Shown one piece after another: positions 422 to 54,151 of a stretch of DNA of 64,000 bases. The first letter of the stretch is position 1, and every line of letters starts with the position of its first letter. Under the pieces are notes generated by a model. That model saw only the letters and a list, made by a program, of their open reading frames with translations, was not told the DNA's origin and did no database searches. The DNA is from Cryphonectria parasitica EP155 (lineage: Eukaryota; Ascomycota; Sordariomycetes; Diaporthales; Cryphonectriaceae): positions 2,006,001 to 2,070,000 of the forward strand of contig NW_024468914.1 in the NCBI RefSeq assembly GCF_011745365.1, read 5' to 3'. The translations under genes and the position numbers were made by a program.

Positions 422-3400
422 ATGGATACATTTAGTCACCTTTCCTCTCCTCCCACCGATCAGGCCGGCCATATCTCATCCCTCAAGCGTCCGGTAGCCA
501 GTGCTTTCAACAACGAAAGCCAGGTGCTTACGAACGGCCAGCGACCCGCCAAGAAGCGCAGGAAAGCAGAGCAGAAGCCCCGAAGCACCGAGCGCTTGGA
601 TCTCACCAATGAGGACGCCGCCGACGAGACTCAACTGAACCGCCTGCTAGACGTCTTGCGCACTAAGAGAAAGATTGTTGTTATCGCAGGAGCTGGCATC
701 TCCGTTTCAGCTGGAAGTACGTCGACATTCAGGAGCCTTGTGCTCTCCCTCAGCAGATCCATAAGCGTAAACATCGGTGACTGACCAAAAAAACAGTTCC
801 CGACTTCCGATCTAGCAAAGGATTGTTCGAGGAATATAAGAGCAAGACTCTCGGTAGTGGTGCGGCTCTTTTCGATGTCTCGGTCTATAACAGCAACAAT
901 TCTACAAAGCAATTCCATGCAATGGTCTGTGATCTATCAGTTCGTGCAAAGGAAGCTGAGCCTACCGCTTTTCACAATATGCTGGCTACGATTGCGCACG
1001 AGGGTCGCCTTCAACGCTTGTACTCTCAGAATATCGATTGTCTGGAAACATCCCTTTTGCCCTTAGCAACAAAAACGCCGCTGCCGGCGAAGAAACCCTG
1101 GCCAACTACTATCCAGGTTCACGGTGGACTGGAGAAAATGCATTGTATGAAATGCAAGTTTGTCTCTAACTTTGATGCAAGTCTCTTTCAAGGATCAGAG
1201 GCCCCTTTGTGCAATCTATGCAAGGAGCAGGACGATATACGCACTGGAGTTTATGGAAAGCGAAGCCATGGTATCGGACGGCTGAGGCCAAGAATACATC
1301 TCTACAATGAGTCTAGCCCTGATGAAGACGCTATCGGAGCAGTCTCGCAAGCAGACTTGAGACAAGTACCGGATGCTGTCCTTGTTGTGGGCACAAGCCT
1401 CGTGGTTCCGGGCATACGACGAATTGCTCAACAATTGTGCCGAGCAACTCGATCGACTCGAGATGGATTTACTGCTTGGATTAATCCAGATCCTGAACCT
1501 CGCGGTTGCGACCTGAAGGATGTCTGGGATATGGTCGTCTGCGGCAGATCAGATACTATCGCCAGCCTCTTGGGACTTCCTCACTGGGATTGCATTGATC
1601 CTTATCGCAGCCAGTCTTCTATTATCGATGCAGAGCTTGACGGCAAAAATGACGCTTCTTTCTACTATACGGATGCCAGGTTCATGCTTGAAGACGACTA
1701 CAACTCTGTTGGAGATTCAATATCAACACCGCAACGACTTCTCGCAACTAGTCCGTCTTTATCTTCTATTCCTCAGCTACAAAGCACAAAATCAGCCTCA
1801 GCGCCTTCTACTTCTCGCGACAATACACCCGGACTTTCTAGCAATCTCGAAAATGGTCAACGGCAGCAGATGACGCTGCCTAATAAAAATTTGCTTTCCT
1901 CTTCCTCCTGCCTTTTTCCTCTTGTTAAACCTGGACTATCGAAGTTTCAGTTGTCGAGATCACTCATAAGCACTACGCAATTCGATCCCATGCCGTCTTC
2001 TGAACTCCTTGCTCGCCGACCTCTCTACTTCGATGTGGATGAAGTGAGCATGCCGTCAAATGCTGCCATCACTTTATTCAAGCACTACTTTCCCGGAGTC
2101 ACTTTCCATCCGCATCTTCGAGACAGCGGCAGATCCAGTTCCAATACGAACATGATTCGAGGATTCCACTGGGTGTACACAACGCTTCACTTGTATGATG
2201 TGGAAGGCATCTTATTACGAAGAGAACAGTTTTCTGACCGCCAGGTTTTGGCTCTTGTCAGATGGCAGTTGCTGGATTTCGGTGCCCAAGTCTGGACACC
2301 CAATTGGTTTATCAATGTGGAAAATAGAACTGTTCCGACGCTTCGACCAAGGCCGGAGTACGGCCCCGACACGCAATATGTGGCTCTTCCATGTCTGTAT
2401 AAAGGCCATTGGATTGCTATAGTCTATGATTATCAGCATAATTGCATTGTGGTGCTGGATTCTCTTTTCGCAAAGCAGGACCAGGTTGTTCTGTTCACAA
2501 AGGAACTGATCAAGAGGCATCTGACGGCAATGAAACGGTTTCCTGATAACTTTCCCCAATTGCGGTGGGTAAGAACTCAGCAGCAGAAAGACAAGTGGAG
2601 CTGTGGCCTCCACATGGTGCACAACCTTCGCTCCTTCCTCTGCAAAGTTCTGATCGCAGACCGTGGACATTTCATGGACTCGTACTTGTCTGCGGAAGGA
2701 GATTGGGCCGACTATGCCTCTCAGACGTCTATTGAGGAGGGTTTTCTTCGTGCGATCAGATCAGAGCTCGGCAATGCTCACCAACCATTGAGAAATCCCG
2801 AGATTCCTCAGCAATCATTGGAAGACTGGCGCGAAGATAACGCTTCTCATCGCCTCAAGGATACAGTTGTCGCAGACAGAGCTCTGGAAGAGATGGCCGA
2901 TTCAGTGGAAATTTCCGACATTTTTCTTCCTAAGCCAACTTCTCCTTGTCAGCCATCTGAAATCCTTCTTCTACCGAAGCACAAAGCCATTTCCGAGTCC
3001 AGCTCCGAAAGTGATGTGATATCCAAGAAGGTGGGCAAGCCATCGGGAGTCACAGCACGAGACCCGAACGCACCTAAATGCCATCCTGCTTCGAATTCTC
3101 AAGTGACTCGCCTTACTACAAAGATAGATGCTCTGGGAAACATGACCGATAATGATGAGAACTACGGGTGTCATCAGAATGAGACGCCCAAGGATTTCCC
3201 CACAGCGACACCATCCCCGACAGGCCAACTTGAGCAGGGCTCTCAAGAATCCCTGCCGAAGATGCTCGACATATTGAACGAAGACCTGGAAAGACTCGCA
3301 ACTTCTGTTATTGAAGATGTCCACAGCTATGCTGCAACGACGGGTTCTCGCAGGCAGCCTCGGCAGAGTCAGGCACTTCAACAGCATATCTTCACGCGTC

Positions 3401-3618
3401 TGAGAGACTTCACTGCTGAAGTTCTTCGGAACTATAAGAGAGTCGCAGAACACCAGTCTACCGCTGTTTTATCAGCTAGCAAATCGGAGGGTCGAGGGAG
3501 TTTATCACGACTCCAGAATTCTGGTTCAGCTACTACAGTACAATCACCCTCGACTGCGCCACTCACAACAGAGTTTGTATCTCGAGCTGTGAAAGATGGG
3601 CTTTCGAGGGAAAGTTAG
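422..3618 (+). CDS. Sirtuin (Sir2) - Ulp1 SUMO-protease fusion protein
   Basis: Join 422..716 and 797..3618, 1038 aa; the 80-nt intron is GTACGT..ACAG and restores the sirtuin loop GAGISVSAGIPDFRS. The N-terminal half is an Hst3/Hst4-like NAD-dependent deacetylase. It has the QNID motif at 176-179, the catalytic His of VHGG at 207, zinc Cys pairs at 215/218 and 237/240, and VVGTSL near 295. The C-terminal half is a C48 (Ulp1/SENP) cysteine protease with His636 in GHW, Asp653 in LDSL, Gln695 and Cys701 in WSCG, so the whole catalytic set is present. A basic KKRRK patch near residue 45 could be a nuclear signal. The expected roles, inferred from the families, are deacetylation of histones or other proteins and cleavage of SUMO or a related modifier in the nucleus. 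The reading frame continues past the TAG stop (see next entries), so the original protein was probably longer. Confidence 0.88.
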
Positions 3619-4485
3619 CCAACTGATCAGGGTAGAATGGAGAATTTGGCAATAATGCAGAAATCTCAGCTGCAGACAGCTACGCCAGAACCTCGGTACT
3701 TTCTAGATGAAGATGGTCGCAATTCGAACAAGACTCTACCTACGAATTTGGCCTGTTTGGACAATAGCAGGGCTACATCTCCTCTCTCAGACATGGATGA
3801 TGCTAAACTTGAGGAACTCAGGGATCTTGTGGAACGACAGCCATTGAGACTAGACTCTGAAGACAATCGCTCCTTGAAAGCTCATTCCCTCAAGTCGCAG
3901 ATGTTGACGAAGCTGATAAAACAAGCTGCTGCCTTCAAAGTCCAGACCGGGCAAAACAGGTTGAAATATACAGTCACTGAAACAGATATGGAAACTCGCT
4001 TGGGGCTTGAAGTACTTGTTTCACAATTCATAAGTTACATCAGCATGTGGAGAGACTTTTCTATACCGGTCATCAAAACCAACTTCCATATTTGCAGCGC
4101 CTGGGAGAAACGCATTTCCGGCTACTATAACCTCGCCAAGGCACTAGAAAACTCATCAAGTCTTCACTATCTCCTGTATTGAGTTGCAAAAGTTGAAATT
4201 GCGAAGGCTTTGGAGCAGAGGGCGAAAGAGCTAGGATATCAATAACTGCCTTTGGATATGATTGAGGGGATTCTGATGAGAGAAGATAAGAATATAACAG
4301 TTGCACCTCAAAATCTCCAGGAATGGCTTAGGTCACCACGACAGCTCCTCAAAGTCCTGGGGCCCTATCTCGGTGTCTCCTATCATTTGTTCCTATCAGC
4401 AAGGAAAACTCGATCACAATCAGGCAGCTCTCGCGTATCCCAGGAACAGCAATCCCAAGATTTGATTCCTATATGTCAACATTGA
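3619..4485 (+). pseudogene. In-frame continuation of the Sir2-Ulp1 gene, broken by stops
   Basis: After the TAG at 3616-3618 the same frame stays open to TGA at 4180-4182, then to TAA at 4243-4245, then to TGA at 4483-4485. It encodes about 285 mostly polar residues with no recognised domain, including a serine/acid-rich stretch and helical segments. The inner stops could derive from CAG, CGA and CAA by C-to-T changes, as RIP produces. A methionine at 3637 could start a 181-aa ORF, but the unbroken frame with the upstream gene argues for a single ancestral protein. I see no good introns that would remove the stops. It could still be translated in pieces. Confidence 0.55.
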
Positions 4486-5222
4486 AAGGGGTCAAGCAAC
4501 TCTCGGAGCTAGGACAACAGTTCCAAGATTCCATTTTGAGAGGAGAACAGTTTCCTTTAATGGTCTGGGAGAGGATCGATGCTCGAGTCAGAGAAAAATC
4601 AGCCACTCATCTCATGCAGCACATAGCTGTTCGGTATATTGAGAAGAATATTAGTAAGGAACCAGACTGGGAAAAGCTAGAGGGCTGGCCCGGTGAGTGG
4701 CCTTCCAGCCCTGACTCTCTTTTACCAGGTGATGTGTGTGAGATCTGTGGTAATGTGGAATGCGCCTGCATTCAAGTATGCTTTCTTAAACCTCCTCGTA
4801 TTGTTCATTATGGGGTCAGAGGTTTCGGTCTTCAGGCTACTGCTATGAGCGGAGAACAGGTGGTCTATGATAATGGAGAACGCATTGAGCAGTTTGTTGG
4901 GCGGTTCTTGAATCCAGATATACACAAGGATGGGCTGGCGTTGGATTTCACAAGATCTGATATTGAAGGAGAGCTTATTGTGGCTCAACTTCATATGGGA
5001 AAAGAGAGCAACGATCTTCGTTTTGTGAACCATCGTTGCAAGAACCCAAATGCAGTGATACAGGGTATAGCGATTTCAGGGAAGCATCGGAAGATGCTGG
5101 TTGGTAGGAAGAACATATATGAGGGGGAGGAGATTACTGTGAATTTTGGGGGACAGTTCTTGAGTGGATCGGACTGTATCTGTAAGGACTGCTCAGCGTT
5201 AGTGAAGCCAGCGATTGACTAA
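4473..5222 (+). CDS. SET-domain lysine methyltransferase segment (3' part of the Sir2-Ulp1-SET locus)
   Basis: The ORF runs from a possible Met at 4473 (249 aa), but the frame is open further upstream, overlapping the previous segment in a +2 frame; a small indel or unrecognised intron near 4320-4440 would join them. The protein has a cysteine-rich segment (CEICGNVECAC), the SET motif RGFGLQA, the AdoMet-binding signature RFVNHRCKNPNA, the EGEEITVNFGG motif, and a post-SET CxCxxC (CICKDC). All the essential SET parts are thus present. The expected activity is transfer of methyl groups to lysine, probably on histones. Same strand, immediate adjacency and the broken common frame suggest it was the C-terminus of the upstream protein. 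Whether it is translated today cannot be told from sequence. Confidence 0.75.
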   Translation: MSTLKGVKQLSELGQQFQDSILRGEQFPLMVWERIDARVREKSATHLMQHIAVRYIEKNISKEPDWEKLEGWPGEWPSSPDSLLPGDVCEICGNVECACIQVCFLKPPRIVHYGVRGFGLQATAMSGEQVVYDNGERIEQFVGRFLNPDIHKDGLALDFTRSDIEGELIVAQLHMGKESNDLRFVNHRCKNPNAVIQGIAISGKHRKMLVGRKNIYEGEEITVNFGGQFLSGSDCICKDCSALVKPAID

Positions 5223-7168: not shown

Positions 7169-7213
7169 GGGGTAACCTCCGGCCACCGTAACTTCCGGCC
7201 ACCCCGGTCCGCT
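7169..7213 (+). repeat. Left terminal inverted repeat of the pogo element
   Basis: It begins GGGGTAACCTCCGGCCACCG and contains the 9-mer CCGGCCACC twice, 15 bases apart. It pairs with 9284-9328 on the opposite strand with 43 of 45 positions identical. The internal direct repeat may be a transposase binding site, by analogy with other Fot1 elements; that is inference. Confidence 0.85.
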
Positions 7214-7311
7214 CCCAGCCACCTTCAACCCCCCTCTTTTTGTATCATCTTTTCTCAATCAATTCTACTCTAATCAACTTCGTATCTTCATCAAGCCTTT
7301 ATGCAGTCATT

Positions 7312-9228
7312 ATGAAGCTCTATACCGAATTTGAGCTAGCTCAGGCTCTTGAGGCTATCAGAAGGGGTATATTTCAGCAACAGGCCTCGAAGAATTGGAG
7401 CATACCAAGAGCTACTCTTCAGGATCGCTTAGCAGGAGGAGAATTGCATTCAACAGCATATGAATATAAGCAAAGGCTTTCTATCAGCCAGGAAAGGAAG
7501 ATAGCTGAATGGATCTGCATTCAGAAAACCCTAGGGCTTTTACTAAGCTACTCAGAGCTTAAGCACTTTGCTCAACGAATTCTCGAGATTAAGGGAGATC
7601 CTTAGGCTCTAGGAAGAAAGTAGCTACAAACTTTCTTGAAGAGAAATCCAAATATTCAGATTCGCAAGAGTTAAAAGATTGCTTCAGCTCGAACTAATAG
7701 AGCTATAATAGAGATAATACAGCTTTGGTTTCCATTTTTCAAACCTTTCTCAAATTCAAGCTATCAAGCTAGCTAATAGATGGAATATGAATAAAGCTGG
7801 AATAGCTAAGAGCTAAGAAGGGAATGGATTAGTTCTTAGTAGCTCTTATTTGCATGCGATTCATCGAAAAGAGCCTGGATCAAGATTCTGAACTTCTTTC
7901 CTCGAGTATATTTCTGCTACAGATGCTTGCTTCTTCCCTCTAGTAATCTTCAAGAAGAAAACAGTACAACAACAGTAGTTTCCTCTCCTCTTGGAGTATT
8001 TCAATAGCTAGCAGTTTATAGCAACAACAAACGGATAAACTGATAATGCTATAGCACTTGAATAGCTGAAAAAAATCTTCATCCCAAGCAACCAGTTAGC
8101 AAACCCCTTAGAAACCAGATTATTAGTTCTGAATAGCTACAGCAGCTATATAACTAATGAATTTATGTAGCAATACTATTAAAACAATATTCTGTTGATT
8201 TACTTGCCTTCTCATACTTCTCATATACTTCAACCTTTCGATCTAAGAATCTTCTCATCTCTTAAGAAAGCATACAAACGAAAAGTTAGTTATATCAGCT
8301 AATAAGAGAATTCAATAGTCTTTAGCAAGCATTTATTCCTCAAGAACTATTATAAAGCTCGTATTGTCGTGGTGGCCAGGGTGGCAGTCCGTAGGACATG
8401 GAGTACAGTGGTTTAAGAGTCCTCACACATATAAAGAATACCACCCACTTTTCAAATTCTTTAGCTATAGGCAACAATCAAGCATCCTTTCTCTTCTTTC
8501 AATTTTGAACCCTTTGGACAGGTCTAAGACAGGTTTTTCACCCTGTTCTTGTGCCCGTGTGGCCTTAGTTTGCTGTCCTCATCTGTACAGGCACGCTTGG
8601 GTTGCACGAGCCCTTGCCCATTGCTTCGGCAGCTGTTCGTTCCTTTTCTCGAGGGCGATGGCGCCCTAGTTCTGATTCAGTATAGAGAGTTTCTCGAGCT
8701 GAAATATCAAGTCTGAATAGAGTGCTACTAGCTTATAGCTTGTTAGACTCTCCAAGCTACTCTTAAGCTCTCTCCTCCTTGAGAATACTTCTCAATACAT
8801 TCAGAGCTAGCCAAATTCAGGCTTAACAGCATTAACAGCAGCCCAGCATACTACAAAAGCCTTCTCAAGCTAGCCAGCTATCTTTTCAACTCCTTGAAAG
8901 GCTAAACAGCTATACTATTAGCTATAGAAGAATTAGCACCAACTTTCGTCTCAGCTACTGCAATGTATACTCTTTAGGAAAATAAAAAAGGTATTTGATA
9001 AGCAAGATCTTGAGTTTGCAAAAGCTCTGGAAAGAAATGAATTCTGGAAAGGCAAATAGAAGCTAAAAAGCTTACTAAAAGAAGGAAGGTAGATTTGAGC
9101 CCAAACTCGAGGTTCGCAGACATTAAGAATATACAGAGGGCTCGAAATGCGGCCAATAGAGATGGCGACAGTCTAGATGAAGAGAGCAGCATCGAATTAC
9201 CTACTGATGAGAAGGAATGCATCGTGGT
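7312..9228 (+). pseudogene. Fot1/pogo DDE transposase relic
   Basis: From the ATG at 7312 an open frame of 97 codons encodes a psq/CENP-B-type helix-turn-helix region (SKNWSIPRATLQDRLAGG), ending at a TAG. Beyond it, translation shows recognisable pieces of the family with stops between them: the second HTH (FLKRNPNIQIRKS), NRWNMNKAGIA before the DDE core, and PSHTSHILQPFDLRIFSSLK near 8200-8260, typical of the last DDE motif. The C-terminal part resumes after the insertion at about 8690 and runs to roughly 9200. It is not functional. The chain resembles Fot1-like transposases of about 500-550 residues. Confidence 0.8.
8364..8690 (+). mobile_element. Insertion inside the pogo transposase, possibly SINE-like
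   Basis: A block of about 320 bases splits the transposase reading, is richer in G and C than its surroundings and codes for nothing recognisable. Near its 5' end TGGCCAGGGTGG (8373-8384) and GGTTTAAGAGTCC (8410-8422) loosely resemble RNA polymerase III A and B boxes, the layout of a tRNA-derived SINE. No clear target duplication or A-tail is seen, so the class is uncertain. Confidence 0.33.
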
Positions 9229-9283
9229 GGGTGTATAAGAAGAGGAATGTATATAAGATAATATATATATGAGTGGTTGGTGT

Positions 9284-9328
9284 AGCGGGCCGGGGTGGCC
9301 GGAAGTTACGGTGGCCGGAGGATACCCC
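9284..9328 (-). repeat. Right terminal inverted repeat of the pogo element
   Basis: Reverse complement of 7169-7213 with two differences. It ends in TACCCC at 9328, followed by CT rather than TA. Confidence 0.85.
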
Positions 9329-20482: not shown

Positions 20483-22687
20483 TTAGTTGCCCTTGTGCAC
20501 CTCCTGAATCATATCTATGGCGGCACCGCGCAGCTTGAACTTTTGGATCTTACCGCTCGCGGTTTTGGGATACTCGTCGATCCAGAAAATGTACCGTGGC
20601 ACCAAGTGCCCGCTCAGCTGAGAGCGCACCCAAGAACGTACTTGTTCCTTGCACAGGGTGGTGGTGGTGGTGGTGAGCGGCGGTGGTGGTGGTGGTGGTG
20701 GGCCGGGCTGGCTGTTCTCCTCGCCCTCGCCGTCCTCGTCCTCGTCGTCCTCCTCTTTCGTGACCACACCTGCATGCGGGATAATGAAAGCACACACGGT
20801 CTCGCCCAGCTTGGCATCGGGAACGCCGACCACGGAGGCTTCTGCAATGAGCGGGTGTTGGAAGAGAACGTTCTCAATCTCGAGCGGGTGGATGTTCTCG
20901 CCGCCCCGGATGATCAAGTCTTTCAGGCGGCCCGTGATGCTGACATAGCCATCTTCTGACATGCTGGCCTCATCCCCGCTATACAGCCACCACCGACCTC
21001 GTCGTTGCCCATCCTTCTCCTCCTCCTCCTTCTCCTCCTCCTCCTTCTCCTCCTCCTCCTTCTCCTCCTCCTCCTTCTCCTCCTCCTCCTTCTCCTCCTC
21101 CTCCTTCTCCTCCTCCTCCTCCTCGTGCTCATCATCATCATCATCATGAGGCTCAAAGATGCGCACTTCCTCTGTCTTGTCCTCGGCAGCCCAGTAGCCC
21201 TGCATGACGAGGTACCCGCTCGCCGCCAGCTCCCCGCGCTGCCCGATGGGCATCACCCTGCGCCTGTCGCCCGGGTCCACGATCTTGACCGTCGTGTGTG
21301 GCATCACCTTGCCCACGCTGCCTGTCCTCTTGTGCAGCGGGTCTGTCGGCGCGGTCATGCACGACACGGGGCTCGTCTCCGTCATACCATAACAAATGAC
21401 GAGCTCCTCGAGGCCCAGCTTTCCGTACAATCTGCGCATGAGTGACTCAGGCATCGATGATCCGCCGGCAATACCCTTGCTTAGATGTTGGGGAAGCTGC
21501 CGCGCCTCGTCTGCCGTGAACACACCGGCGTGGTGGTGGTCCTCGAGCAGCTCCAGCATGGACACAAACATTGTGGCCACCCCGTACAGGCCCGTGGCGC
21601 GGTGGTCCAGGGCCATGCGCAGGCTGGCCACGGGGTCAAACGCAGGCGAGGGGAACAGGATGGCCGCGCCAGAGGTCGCCGTGGCCATGAAGCCGAGGAC
21701 GCTGCCGAAACAGTGGAACAGCGGGGGCGGACAGACGATGCGGTCACCAGGGACCAGACCCATGCGCCTGCCGATCAGGTAGCCATTGTTCAGAATATTG
21801 GTGTGGGTGAGCATGGCCGCCTTGGGATGCGAGGTCGTGCCGGACGTGAACTGGATGTTGACGGTATCGTCTGGGTGGAGCGGCGCATCCGGGACGACGG
21901 CCACGACTGGCCGGCTGGCTGAGCCCAAGGAGGAAGAAGACGAACCGCCCACCAGCGCCGAGTAAGGCGTCAGCGAGGCGTGTTCCTGGACCCTCAAGAC
22001 CGAGGCCGCATGGCCATCCGTATTGTCCAGCACCACGATCCTCCGCAGCGTCGGCACCTGGGGGCTCTCGACTGTACCCGACGCCAGGTCTGGCACCAAG
22101 GCCTGCAGCAGCGCAAGGTTGTCCCGCCCCTGGCACGGCCTGTACGCCCGGTCCGAGACGGCACCGATGACCAAGACTTGGACGCCCAGGTGCGAGAGGG
22201 CGGCGCCGACCTGGGACGCGTTGAAGGACGGGTTCAGGGGCACCAGAACGGCTCCCAGCTTGAAGATGGCATAGCTCAGCGTCGCGTGCTCGATCGTGTT
22301 CCCCAGGCTGACGGCCACCCTGTCGCCCTTCTTCACCCCAAGTGCTTGCAGGGACACGGCGAGGGCGCTCGAGTCTGCGTCCAGCGCCGCATAGCTGAGA
22401 GACGTCTCTCTTGTTGTCAAGGTCGCGCTGGTCCTGTTGTCATTGTTGGCCGCCGTCCTCGCAATCACTGCAGGATGGTCACCGTAATGGGAGACAACCC
22501 TCTTGAGGTTCTCTGGGATGGTTTCCGCAAGCAGGGGAGGTTCATCGGGGCCTCGGGAGATGCTGTGTGTCAGGCTGCTGGACAGCCTCACTGGAGAACT
22601 TGACTTGAGTAAGCTGAAAAGGGGGAGTGTCCCACATCTTGTTCTTTGACACTTGCCTACAATCCTTGTGCTGGTGGATGGCAGCAT
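20483..22687 (-). CDS. Acyl-CoA synthetase (AMP-binding, ACSF2-like, probably mitochondrial)
   Basis: A single exon of 734 aa. It activates a carboxylic or fatty acid with ATP to the acyl-adenylate, then the CoA thioester. All core ANL motifs are visible: the P-loop FTSGTTSHPKAAML, YGMTETSP, YSGDEASMSEDGYVSITGR with the hinge, RGGENIHPLEIE, and PKTASGKIQKF with the catalytic Lys near the C-terminus. The first 40 residues are basic, Ser/Thr-rich and lack acids, as in mitochondrial presequences. Two low-complexity insertions interrupt the fold. One is a run of about 50 Glu/Lys residues after an Asp/His stretch, just before the YSGD motif; the other is an acid-Pro-Thr segment in the C-terminal domain. 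These account for the excess over the usual 560-600 residues. The first insertion sits in a loop of the catalytic domain and may be tolerated. The gene is divergent from the reductase at 23483. Confidence 0.9.
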   Translation of the reverse strand: MLPSTSTRIVGKCQRTRCGTLPLFSLLKSSSPVRLSSSLTHSISRGPDEPPLLAETIPENLKRVVSHYGDHPAVIARTAANNDNRTSATLTTRETSLSYAALDADSSALAVSLQALGVKKGDRVAVSLGNTIEHATLSYAIFKLGAVLVPLNPSFNASQVGAALSHLGVQVLVIGAVSDRAYRPCQGRDNLALLQALVPDLASGTVESPQVPTLRRIVVLDNTDGHAASVLRVQEHASLTPYSALVGGSSSSSLGSASRPVVAVVPDAPLHPDDTVNIQFTSGTTSHPKAAMLTHTNILNNGYLIGRRMGLVPGDRIVCPPPLFHCFGSVLGFMATATSGAAILFPSPAFDPVASLRMALDHRATGLYGVATMFVSMLELLEDHHHAGVFTADEARQLPQHLSKGIAGGSSMPESLMRRLYGKLGLEELVICYGMTETSPVSCMTAPTDPLHKRTGSVGKVMPHTTVKIVDPGDRRRVMPIGQRGELAASGYLVMQGYWAAEDKTEEVRIFEPHDDDDDEHEEEEEEKEEEEKEEEEKEEEEKEEEEKEEEEKEEEEKDGQRRGRWWLYSGDEASMSEDGYVSITGRLKDLIIRGGENIHPLEIENVLFQHPLIAEASVVGVPDAKLGETVCAFIIPHAGVVTKEEDDEDEDGEGEENSQPGPPPPPPPPLTTTTTTLCKEQVRSWVRSQLSGHLVPRYIFWIDEYPKTASGKIQKFKLRGAAIDMIQEVHKGN
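21014..21122 (+). repeat. 15-bp coding minisatellite (CTCCTCCTCCTCCTT)n
   Basis: Seven or so copies of a 15-base unit encode repeated EEEEK on the - strand inside the acyl-CoA synthetase. The unit length is a multiple of three, so copy-number change keeps the frame. Confidence 0.9.
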
Positions 22688-41271: not shown

Positions 41272-43004
41272 CTACGCTTTCTTCCTTGGTCGTTTTGCCG
41301 CAGCCCCTCCTTGCAGCGAGCTCTGTGGGGTGGCAAGATGTGGCGCCGCTGGGGCTACCGAACTCTGGCTGGACGTTGCTGCGGACAGGCTTTCCATGCC
41401 CTGGGACAGACCGGTCTCAGGCAGCGGGTCGACGGTAAAGTCGATGTCGGGCGGGATCTGGTCGATCGCAGCGCGAATTCTCGCAAAGTGCGATGGCATC
41501 CAGAGATCGTAGACATTCTTGGTAAAGCGGTAGGCAGTCCACTTCTCCCTGCCATCCAGCTCTACGAAGCTGAACTGGCGGATCGGATGGCGGTAGTACT
41601 TGATCTCCTTCCCTTCTATGACAGGATAGTAGCTGTAGATCCGCACAGCCTGATGGTCGTGCGAGACAGAGAAGCTGAGGATCTGCCGGTCGACCTCGGC
41701 CTCTCGCCCCACAAGTCGGAAGAGCTCAAAGACCGCCCGTGCCGCCATCGCCATGCTGTGGGCGTTCTGCCGGTCGGCCACGTCGAGCGCAGCCGCGCCG
41801 CACTTCGTCTCACCCGCCAGGAACGGGAAGAACATGTGGTATGTGGCCATGAAGAACGACTGGTCGCCGCCGAGCCAGTTGCCGATGAATGGCGCGAGTT
41901 TGGCCAACTGGCCATCCGAGAAGGCTTCGCTCCGGAAGCCAACAGAGTAGTCGGGCTGCGGGCGGATCCCGGTGAGGGGAACCGAATTGTTCCAACCTTC
42001 ATTGACGCTCTCGATGATATTTTTCAGGTGGTTCGCGCCGCGGATCGAAAGTGATTGGGCTGAGGGAATGATGAGCCGAGCGATGTCCTGAATTATCTTG
42101 GCCTCATTTCTGCCTTGTAGCATATCGCAAGTTGCGTCAAACAAGTCGTCGCAAAACAGTGTATCGTGAGGGGTTGGCTGGATATCCTCCAGTAAGTGGA
42201 CACATAACTCCTTGCTCTGCGGCGTAATCCCCCGCTCAGCCTTACCCATCACAACACCCTTTGTTTTGAGTAGAAGCTCATATCGCGGGTCTCTGTATGG
42301 AGCGCTCTTCTCTTCTCGCGGCCTCTGGTCACTGGGAGTTACAGACGAAGCTGAGCTGGACCGCCTCCGGCCCAGCGAGGGACTCGATCTCTTTCTTGCA
42401 AGTAAATGATCCATGTTAAAGCATGCATCGAAGTATTTCCGCGGCCAGCGTCCTTCTCGTATCCAGAAGTCAAGGATTGCACGCCAGTCGTCCTCGGTGT
42501 CGTCCGTTGCCTTTTCGCTGAGAGCCTCTTGAGGAATAAAGTCGATGGGGCCGGACCGGTGACGCTTGCGTATGGTTTCGTCTGGATCGTGCTCGGGCAG
42601 AGGGACTTGACGCCAGCGCTTGTGTCCTGCACGAGGCTGTTCCTAATGAAATTAGCTGAGATCCCAGGAAGTAGTGCATATGGGACTTTGCGATATGGCA
42701 TACTGTGAATGAGTCTATTGCAGGGTCCACGGATGGTAGTATCTTGAGGGCTCGAGGTGGGCTATCCGTCGCCTGGCGTGCTCGTTTTGCGCGCTGCTCG
42801 TCTGCGTCTGCAGTGTCTGCACCAAGTTTGCGGTCGCTCTGCCGAAGACGCTCTGTATTCATTAGCTGACAATTGTAGATCGAAGCGGCGCCATACCTGC
42901 TATTAGCGGCACCACCACTGCACAGTGTTCTTACCTTGATCTGATTGCAGGCAATGTTCCTGGAGTGTCTTTAGGCTCGCGAGGTTCGCCAGCTGCGATG
43001 TCAT
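41272..43004 (-). CDS. DUF7924-type PD-(D/E)XK nuclease-like protein
   Basis: Join 43004..42935, 42852..42704 and 42642..41272 on the - strand; 529 aa, all phases agreeing. Both introns have CAGCTAAT branch points. The N-terminus is basic and coiled (LKTLQEHCLQSDQERLRQSD), then FWIREGRWPRKYFDACFNMDHLLARKRSS, a family landmark. The core contains RPQPDYSVGF, then MFFPFLAGETKCG (E-x-K of a restriction-like fold), RQNAHSMAMAARAVFELFRL and FSVSHDHQAVRIYSYYPVI. Two basic segments (RKRSS, KRPRKKA) suggest nuclear localisation. DUF7924 proteins are abundant in ascomycetes and basidiomycetes and have no established function; nuclease activity is inferred from the fold motif. A second member lies at the right edge of the window. 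Confidence 0.82.
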
Positions 43005-51500: not shown

Positions 51501-53035
51501 ACAGAGAGGAAAGACCCTCCACAAAACCTGTTGCCCCGGCTCGTGTTACCCAGACTGAGACCTCCTGCGGGGTGTTGTCGGACGACGGTGCCCTGAGAGT
51601 GGTTGTCTATTCTCCCACGTCCGCCTCATCAGAGGGAAATGTAACCTCCCAGGACATTTGTTGATAGCACGGATACTACTCTTTCTGTTGCCTCACCCTG
51701 TTGAGACCGGTGGTCCATTCCGAATAAAGACTTGTCCAGGCGACCTCCGACCGTCTGTATTACAACTTGGCCGACGCCTCGAGCGGAAGCGTGCAGCGGG
51801 TAGGCAGTCAGGCAGCAGTCAGAAAGCACATACACTGCCTGACTGTATGGGAACTCCTCAGTCAAGGGAGTGAGAGGGGGAGGGAGGGAGGTCTGTGAGA
51901 ATGAGCCCTCTCCACCATGGTCGCTGTTGAACCGCAACAGCTCAGAAAAGCTCGGACAATACCCTGTACGATGTGAGCAGTCATCGGAAAAAAAAGTGAA
52001 CACCCAGAGAGAAACAGGGACGAGTAAGTACCCTCGTACCAGATCCGATCTGATCTGTCAAGGCTCTGACAACATGGAAATTGTGCCCCCTTCGGCGCTG
52101 TCAGATCTTTGAGCGCTATCACACGGAGGAGACACAGACGTAGATTGTGCACACGTGCCTCTGTAAGAGGAACACAGGGCTGATTGGTAGTGGTGCAAAA
52201 ACACAGCAGCCGCATCGTGGGTGAGAAACAGGAATGCCTTACACGAAGTGGCTTGCTTAGAGGGGTCTTGTCGTAGTAAGATGGAGTGACTACATCCAAA
52301 GAGAATACATGGAGTCATCCGTTTGCAAACGCAGCTGGGAAGAACGCTGGGGAGGGGGGGGGGGCCGGGGGGCCGGCGTGGAGGGGGCCAGAGATTACAC
52401 TGCGGCATGGCCAGCTCCGATCATATGTCTGTATGTAGGCTGCCGATGACCGTGATAAGAGCCAGACGGAAGTCGACAGTAGACCTGCGTTGCCCGTCAG
52501 CGTGGTTTGCTCGATGAAAAGAGAGTCAGTGTACTTGTCTATACTTATCATACTGTAACAGTAGATAGTATTCATAATATTATCATCAGTTGTAAGAAAA
52601 GTTTGCTCTGGCAAGGCAGCATGGACCATTGATGTTGTTACCCGCAAGTTGTGCGACCAGGGATGTTATTCAACCACACATTCTCGTGAAAGCTATCATT
52701 GTGATTGCTCACAGCCCTGCGGTGCCTGAGGAGTTGGGATGGCCAATGAACATGTTTCTGCATATGCTCCTGAGAACAAACGAATGAAAGGCTGTTGCCA
52801 CCACAGAAATGAGATTTCCACCCTGTGTCGCCATTTCCCTCTCGTTCTGTTTGGTCGATTCCGTTTGCAATCATGACAGACATATATAATGACCTCAAGA
52901 CTGACCCGGAGATTTACACCAGATCCAGTCTGGTGCACCCTCTTTTGCAACCCTCACAACCGGACGGTGCCAAACGTACTGGGAAAGAAAACAAAGCAAT
53001 CTGTCTCCATCCACCGCATAGAGCATACCATCATC
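48532..53035. other. Long intergenic region
   Basis: 4.5 kb without a supported gene. It contains C-tracts (49005-49020), T- and A-homopolymers (49415-49440, 49936-49968), G-tracts (51186-51195, 52351-52362) and purine-rich stretches. ORFs up to about 150 codons on both strands lack family signatures. The left part includes the promoter of the Gln-rich gene (TATTTATATTT near 48787), the right part that of the ankyrin gene. Confidence 0.45.
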
Positions 53036-54151
53036 ATGGACTTCTCTAGACGCACCAACGACCATTCACCTGCTCTGCCCTCCTCGCCCACGCTGCCCGC
53101 TGCTATGGACCCCTTTGCCGCCTGCAGCGAATCCCCCTCCACTCCCAATCGACTGGCGGCTCTTGCATCTGCAGCACTGACGACGGCCGATGCATCCCGG
53201 TCTTCCAGCAGCGTTGACATCATGTCTTCTTCTTCTTCCGCTGCAGAAACCGTCACTCTTCATCCCGACGCTGCTCTCGATATCAGCATCACTGTCGACG
53301 CCCGTGCTGCTGTGGATACCGGCGACATTGTTTATTGTAATGACGTTGTCGATGACATTCTTGACGACTATACAACTGCTGATAAGAGAAGCGCTGTTGA
53401 GGGAGAAGACGAAGTCCTGGCAGAAGGCAACAACGGTGTCGATGGCTTCGTCACCGTCAATGACAGTGCCAATGACGGTGCAATTGCCGGTGTCCATGGC
53501 GACAGGCGTGCCTCTGCCCATGTTGTTGCTGTCAATGACCCTGTTGTTGTCTCTGTTGCTGCTATCGCTGCCGCTGCTCAGGACAACGTTGGTGTTGCTG
53601 ATGCTGTCTCCTGCGATGGGGCCGTCGCTGTCGATGGCAACGGGACTGTCCTTGATGACAAGGGAAATAACAATATCCCGGCTGCCCTCACGCCCACCGA
53701 GCAGGCCTGGGCCATCTACAAGGCCTGTCTCGAGGGACCCTGTCGGCTGAGCGAGGTGCTCGAGGACGAAACCATGATGAGTATGGTCGGGAACCTGCGT
53801 GTGCCTCCTGTACATGGCGAGCCCCTACTCAATCTGGTCATGAGGGCCCCGACCAGAGACTTCAAGAATCAGTCCAAGCTGGCCGTCTTCCACTACCTGT
53901 ACTTGCTCGTCGACAGGCCGTTTGCGTGCGACAACAGCGGTCAGACGGTCCTGCACATCCTCGCCAACCGCTCCGGCGTTGAGGACCGCCGGATCCTGCG
54001 CTATCTCATCAACCAGGCGGACTGGAACGTTCTTGATCTCTGCGACAAGAGCGGCGATACGGCGCTCATGGTGGCGGTGACCAGCGGTGACTTTCATAAC
54101 GCCGGGATGCTAATGCGGGCGGGCGCCAACCCCGGCATGACAGGCCATTAA
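53036..54151 (+). CDS. Ankyrin-repeat protein, C-terminally truncated by an in-frame stop
   Basis: The start at 53036 (MDFSRRTNDH, after ATCATC) gives 371 aa; the frame is open to 52889. Residues 20-230 are low-complexity, rich in Ala, Val, Asp and Ser. From about residue 240 a helical part (TPTEQAWAIYKACLEGPCRL) leads into ankyrin repeats: GEPLLNLVMRAP, NSGQTVLHILANRSGVEDRR, KSGDTALMVAVTSGDFHNAG, MLMRAGANPGMTGH. The TAA at 54149-54151 interrupts the next repeat, whose TPASVAAQQGSLATVTLM follows in the same frame for about 45 more codons. The stop therefore looks secondary. Ankyrin repeats mediate protein binding; the partner is unknown. Confidence 0.72.
   Translation: MDFSRRTNDHSPALPSSPTLPAAMDPFAACSESPSTPNRLAALASAALTTADASRSSSSVDIMSSSSSAAETVTLHPDAALDISITVDARAAVDTGDIVYCNDVVDDILDDYTTADKRSAVEGEDEVLAEGNNGVDGFVTVNDSANDGAIAGVHGDRRASAHVVAVNDPVVVSVAAIAAAAQDNVGVADAVSCDGAVAVDGNGTVLDDKGNNNIPAALTPTEQAWAIYKACLEGPCRLSEVLEDETMMSMVGNLRVPPVHGEPLLNLVMRAPTRDFKNQSKLAVFHYLYLLVDRPFACDNSGQTVLHILANRSGVEDRRILRYLINQADWNVLDLCDKSGDTALMVAVTSGDFHNAGMLMRAGANPGMTGH

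Follow-up and report, generated by a model that had tools for sequence, protein, structure and literature searches.

The sirtuins Hst3 and Hst4 act on lysine 56 of histone H3 (H3K56), as described in PMC2596135. A JmjC-SET family has been reported from filamentous fungi (Veerappan et al. 2008); its activity is doubted in PMC2474616, which also presents yeast Set3 as a SET protein that lacks methyltransferase activity and acts within a deacetylase complex. Here, we describe a locus of Cryphonectria parasitica EP155 (genome of 43.8 Mb in 17 contigs) in which a sirtuin domain, a C48/Ulp1-type protease region, and a SET-bearing module follow one another on the same strand. The locus occupies positions 422 to 5222 of the analyzed stretch of 64,000 nucleotides (the window; G000:C6:2006001-2070000). 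It is probably a three-source chimera that once encoded a single chain in the order Sir2, C48, tail, mid, and SET, in which the Sir2-C48 part has probably remained a gene and the SET tail has become a relic. The features of the locus are listed below, where P0127 is a JmjC-SET protein of Xylariomycetidae sp. FL2044 and C2 is a contig carrying a Sir2 paralogue.

422..716, plus strand: exon 1, encoding an N-terminus with basic PAKKRRK and the first part of the Sir2 fold (GAGISVSAG), from the translation
717..796, plus strand: intron of 80 bp (GTACGT...CTGAC...ACAG), from the translation
797..3618, plus strand: exon 2, with the remaining Sir2, a linker, the C48 region, and the tail, ending in a TAG stop at 3616, from the translation and Pfam
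799..1407, plus strand: exon-2 part of the SIR2 domain (PF02146), from Pfam
1930..2790, plus strand: C48/Ulp1-type region (Pfam stretch ~2368-2649), with 26-48% identity to repeats near contig ends
2791..3615, plus strand: tail, its start in common with the contig-end Ulp1 repeats and 2819-3062 in common with the C2 Sir2 paralogue
3619..4378, plus strand: read-through segment between the first stop and the SET frame (mid), of which 3820-4378 aligns to P0127 residues 272-460, interrupted by stops at 4180 and 4243
4332..5222, plus strand: SET-bearing frame, with P0127 homology from ~4377, an ATG at 4473, and a degenerate SET of the JmjC-SET class

Removal of the 717-796 intron, at a point where both Sir2 paralogues of this genome (on contigs C2 and C5) are also interrupted, leaves 1038 codons in 422-3618. 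A Pfam scan of three pieces of the locus returned SIR2 (70.4 bits; cut-off, 24) and Peptidase_C48 (30.4 bits; cut-off, 20.7), with SET (30.1 bits; cut-off, 22.4) in its own separate frame. The translation retains GAGISVSAG, QNID, HGG, and both CxxC pairs, which we take to be the catalytic and zinc-binding set of the sirtuin, as well as H-D-Q-C, presumably the C48 catalytic motif; we assume the basic stretch PAKKRRK to be nuclear-localisation-like. The 1038-aa open reading frame (ORF) with sirtuin and C48 catalytic sets proposed in the initial annotation is thus borne out by the spliced translation, the Pfam matches, and the residues themselves. Exon 2 had 33 solved-structure matches, none of them an Ulp1. 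Past the TAG at 3616, the same frame continues, with only the stops at 4180 and 4243 before 4483. Segment 3616-4482 therefore contains 3 stops, compared with a mean of 14.4 and a minimum of 4 in first-order Markov shuffles (n = 2000 per segment; none as low). The SET frame is a different one, open from 4332 to 5219 with its stop extending to 5222, and its 0 stops compare with a shuffle mean of 14.8 (again 0 of 2000 as low). The Sir2-C48 frame is open over 939 codons, for which the shuffles gave a mean of 38.8 stops. The frame running on past its stop, with three stops in all, and the frame change followed by a SET ORF were likewise described correctly in the initial annotation. A single uninterrupted Sir2-C48-SET frame does not exist today, given the three stops and a frame change near 4377; the mid-SET module is broken, as it contains two of these stops as well as the frame change.

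This module is shared with the JmjC-SET family. P0127 aligned to the read-through frame with a score of 260 (shuffle mean, 35.8) and to the SET frame with a score of 623 (shuffle mean, 36.0; 42% identity), with 0 of 1000 shuffles as high in each case. The two alignments meet at residues 459/460, and no residue is lost between the frames, so that mid and SET constitute one module. A 12-member family profile scored 148.7 bits on the SET frame and 14.2 bits on the mid frame. The locus thus carries the C-terminal mid-SET module of the family; a JmjC domain was not found either by Pfam on the three pieces or by the JmjC-SET profile run over the entire chain, in which X replaced the stops. The pre-SET CxxC..CxC and the post-SET cysteines are present in 4332-5222, the latter (CICKDC) as the initial annotation had stated, but the SET domain is not complete as claimed: the Pfam match covers only positions 56-105 of 105, and NHRCKNPN and ITVNF stand in the window at the places where, as we partly assume, active enzymes have NHSCxPN and ITxD followed by a tyrosine (ITxDY). 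The motifs of an active SET methyltransferase are therefore not found, and with its active-site motifs degenerate the window SET is unlikely to be a writer and appears a poor, though possible, candidate for a methyltransferase. At 80 conserved columns of a 12-sequence alignment, the window departs at 38 (the most of the twelve), P0128 at 35, and P0127 at 26, in keeping with a branch that is divergent or in decay. A search with the four JmjC-(mid)-SET-like loci of this genome (below) yielded 26 public relatives among 7997 scored candidates, all 26 with a precomputed JmjC label and 2 of them with SET as well. Four genome loci resemble JmjC-(mid)-SET proteins at both ends, namely (i) a locus on C11 and (ii) C2:1135112, both with JmjC and SET above the cut-offs in a single open frame, and (iii) C2:529810-532209 and (iv) C2:1042156-1044516, the matches of which contain stops, with an intron possible in the former.

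The C48 region and the adjoining tail have their own relatives near contig ends. The exon-2 stretch from residue 311-385 to near 700 matches eight stop-bearing genome copies, and one further match covers 96 residues (E = 9.7e-4). Two of the eight copies are partial and located on C3, and six are long and lie ~9.7-12.7 kb from the ends of C1, C3, C4, C5, C6, and C8:

C3:10546, C6:3939902, C4:5106545, C8:12688, C5:9685, and C1:7424955: contig-end Ulp1 repeats

Three of these copies have the C48 core and the following SLxxWR tail in common with the window; the tail portion in the repeats extends up to ~2889 and in one copy up to ~2976. Among themselves, the copies are 86-90% identical in 27 of 28 pairs, the remaining pair consisting of the partial copies L024 and L026 (167 bp at 96%). 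All 942 two-state columns of the six long copies (3843 gap-free columns) are transitions, a pattern that would point to repeat-induced point mutation or something similar, and CpG observed/expected is 0.26-0.39 in the repeats. Recent capture of a contig-end copy was rejected because the window is only 26-48% identical to the copies. No match to the Sir2 piece was found in the fetched flanks of the Ulp1 copies (~1.5 kb per side, more on C3). Downstream of the C3 copy lie opposite-strand, helicase-like pieces, presumably from a telomere-linked helicase of the RecQ kind; of the two pieces scanned, one gave a sub-threshold Pfam DEAD match (20.5 bits; cut-off, 26) and the other none.

The C2 paralogue links the sirtuin to sequences further downstream. 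In C2, Sir2 is directly joined to the counterpart of window 2819-3062, and six bases after this tail match, in the same open frame, follows a stretch resembling window 3855-3909, which lies beyond the window stop. The protein score of this second match was reached by 3 of 1000 shuffles, whereas the control score of the same C2 segment against window 1600-3615 was reached by 933 of 1000; at the DNA level, 5 of 500 shuffles did as well, and plain blastn gave an E value of 4.2. Because the contig-end Ulp1 copies carry the start of the tail, this start belongs to the Ulp1 gene family, and C2 therefore most simply had an Ulp1 part and then lost it. C2 would thus derive from a Sir2-Ulp1 fusion minus Ulp1, and the fusion would predate the split between the window and C2, an arrangement that supports a single ancestral chain. 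The one polypeptide envisaged in the initial annotation accordingly gains support from three sides, i.e., the shared frame, a relative (P0127) that spans mid and SET, and a paralogue that joins Sir2 to downstream pieces.

We propose that a duplicated hst4 sirtuin gene fused with a gene of the Ulp1/C48 type and that a JmjC-SET gene contributed its C-terminal half, without the JmjC domain. The mid-SET module would then have decayed through one preceding stop, two inner stops, and one frame change. The surviving 1038-aa product may be a nuclear tethered double eraser, in which the Hst4-like sirtuin part would act on acetylated histone H3, such as at K56, and the C48 part would strip SUMO or a ubiquitin-like tag off proteins of that chromatin. 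For the lost mid-SET module, a binding or scaffold role is more likely than a methyltransferase one, and it may have positioned the enzyme. The machine combining deacetylation, SUMO removal, and methylation that was suggested at first is unsupported, since the SET motifs are degenerate, the module is broken, and the activity of JmjC-SET proteins is doubted in PMC2474616.

Several results weigh against this history. The homology of mid emerged only once P0121-P0128 had been added and rests largely on P0127; mid gave no clear match to single JmjC-SET members of this genome and no significant match to a four-member JmjC-SET profile, and searched alone in the genome it returned only itself and a match with E = 0.125. 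The linker match in C2 is of modest strength and covers little sequence. CpG is depleted in the 3' part (0.52 in 3619-5222 versus 0.87 in 422-3618; P = 0.0025), which could reflect a separate 3' history as well as decay. Among solved structures, the SET piece is matched best by SET methyltransferases (29 sequences, the lowest E value being 3.2e-5), which argues against a wholly inactive SET. An intact Sir2-C48-SET chain did not occur among the best 120 of the 482 public matches to the 1038-aa query (the set to which all statements on these homologues refer), none of which aligned past residue 481 of 1038, and a 1138-aa Ulp1-mid-SET query gave 0 matches among 7994 scored public candidates; this search relied on shared five-residue words, which are weak for distant relatives and leave absence unproven. 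The intact three-domain orthologues sought at the suggestion of the initial annotation were thus not found among the public proteins scored. Separate coding of the parts in relatives, which it had named as telling against one chain, was partly observed: the relatives encountered carry the three parts as distinct genes.

One explanation, compatible with a one-chain origin and overlapping in its odds with the history proposed above, is that the whole locus, Sir2-C48 included, is a non-functional relic whose 1038-aa frame is by chance still free of stops. We consider it somewhat unlikely. A tree built from 123 Sir2 sequences (the window, C2, and C5 copies and the best 120 of the 482 matches) joined the window to C2 (support, 0.999) and then to C5 (0.979), a grouping that places its descent in the hst4 branch; with its SIR2 domain and 93 of 98 conserved columns kept (columns each kept in ≥98% of the 120 homologues), it belongs to the HST4 type. 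As a relic would predict, the window branch (0.38) is ~11 times as long as that of C5 (0.034), the 3' half is broken, and the nearest paralogue, C2 (branch, 0.44), is degenerate: it departs at 16 of the conserved columns, including the QNxD aspartate and one zinc cysteine, compared with 5 departures in the window and 1 in C5. However, codon changes over 259 codons, scored on a branch where the other two copies agree, number 27 synonymous to 16 non-synonymous in the window (18/16 in C2 and 47/13 in C5), whereas neutrality predicts more non-synonymous changes; the 939 open codons and the intact catalytic and zinc residues also argue against a relic. The pairwise ratio of non-synonymous to synonymous rates (dN/dS) between the window and C2 is 0.23, with dS near 1 (dS against C5 is high or saturated, at 3.2 and 1.6). 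Branch length, conserved columns, codon changes, and dN/dS together indicate a sirtuin half that evolves fast yet is constrained by purifying selection. Constraint is much weaker in the common tail (dN/dS of 0.57 over 87 codons). The closest named relatives of the window Sir2 among the best 120 of 482 are from Cytospora and Diaporthe, and the C5 copy shares 80-83% identity with an unnamed protein and with proteins from Discula and Cytospora.

Less probable still is an origin as two neighbors, i.e., a Sir2-C48 gene ending naturally at 3616 and a JmjC-SET remnant without its JmjC half. Among the relatives encountered, mid-SET comes after JmjC and not after Sir2-C48; the difference in CpG between the halves and an ATG at 3637, just past the stop, also fit such neighbors. 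Yet the frame is unbroken across the stop, only 18 bases separate the stop codon from this ATG and so leave little room for a promoter, the searches for JmjC described above found none, and in C2 the Sir2 frame includes a piece whose window counterpart lies past the stop.

That the stops and the frame change are assembly or base-calling errors, or that splicing or mRNA editing restores one long ORF, is improbable: there are merely three stops and one frame change in ~1.6 kb, A-to-I editing of stops occurs in fungi of this class, and a 54-base in-frame GT...AG stretch (3577-3630) could excise the first stop, but three nonsense codons plus a frame change would be many base-calling errors for a 17-contig assembly, the 3577 site lacks a good branch point, and an intron at 4176-4300 would cut P0127-aligned sequence and lead into a stop before 4332. 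The splice scan lists the same 5' site at 3577 with a 3' site five bases beyond 3630. Candidate introns at 3577-3635 (no good branch point), 4176-4300 (removal of P0127-aligned sequence), and, in frame, 4654-4728 (P0127 has residues there) were all rejected.

The only other close SET piece is a fragment at C6:2081149, which matches at 88% identity across 187 bp and differs at 5 first, 4 second, and 11 third codon positions. This fragment (L010; C6:2079649-2082840) lies ~70 kb from the gene and ~1 kb from a chromodomain ORF that we presume to be a retroelement's. On C2, ~100 kb of sequence (C2:1042156-1142275) holds a C48 match together with two JmjC-SET loci, one of them interrupted by stops, and two additional SET pieces.

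A DNA transposon relic lies at window 7169-9328. Its inverted ends of 45 bp are 95.6% alike, and it holds an ORF that contains a Psq-type DNA-binding domain and gives a sub-threshold Tc5 match; a similar C-terminal stretch, judged by eye, adjoins the C11 JmjC-SET gene (L012). This nearest identified relic begins ~2 kb downstream of the SET frame, and 422-5222 lies outside its inverted ends, although undetected elements are possible. A transposon-encoded origin accordingly found no support, nor did the role in element control or selfish biology that had been suggested from the neighborhood, the upstream 5 kb being covered by an ORF listing without a domain search. Other features of the window are as follows.

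20483-22687, minus strand: AMP-binding enzyme
41272-42414, minus strand: DUF7924 protein
52889-54151: ankyrin-repeat protein

Each piece of the locus belongs to a known family, and their combination appears to be new among the public proteins examined; no report of a Sir2-Ulp1 or Sir2-Ulp1-SET fusion was found in the literature (titles and abstract openings). As a tentative extension, a single-chain Sir2-C48-(pseudo)SET protein may have existed and worked in this lineage of fungi, with JmjC swapped for a sirtuin and a deSUMOylase-like domain, in which case intact copies would occur in close relatives and the Sir2-C48 remnant would be active. If the history proposed above is right, fungi would swap eraser domains (JmjC versus Sir2 plus Ulp1) on a common degenerate SET module, a natural protein would physically link deacetylation and deSUMOylation, and a multi-domain chromatin gene would have been caught shedding a module.

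Compared with known systems, the Sir2 half resembles HST4/HST3-type sirtuins (Neurospora NST-3/NST-4 and Cytospora mali hst4, the latter 67% identical to it over 33% of the query); SIR2 is the sole precomputed Pfam domain of these homologues in the best 120 of 482, whereas the window adds C48 and a long tail. Alignment to the contig-end Ulp1-type gene extends over the C48 region and into the beginning of the tail (SLxxWR); the copies of that gene are broken by stops, whereas the window copy is open. The module shares with the JmjC-SET family (PMC2474616) the pre- and post-SET cysteines, and mid and SET align consecutively with P0127; at this locus, however, no JmjC was found, Sir2-C48 stands in its place, and the module is broken. 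Finally, yeast Set3 as presented in the same paper offers a parallel for a degenerate SET working with a deacetylase; the Set3 case involves separate subunits and no C48, whereas the window, likened to it by domains alone, would have joined these functions in one chain.

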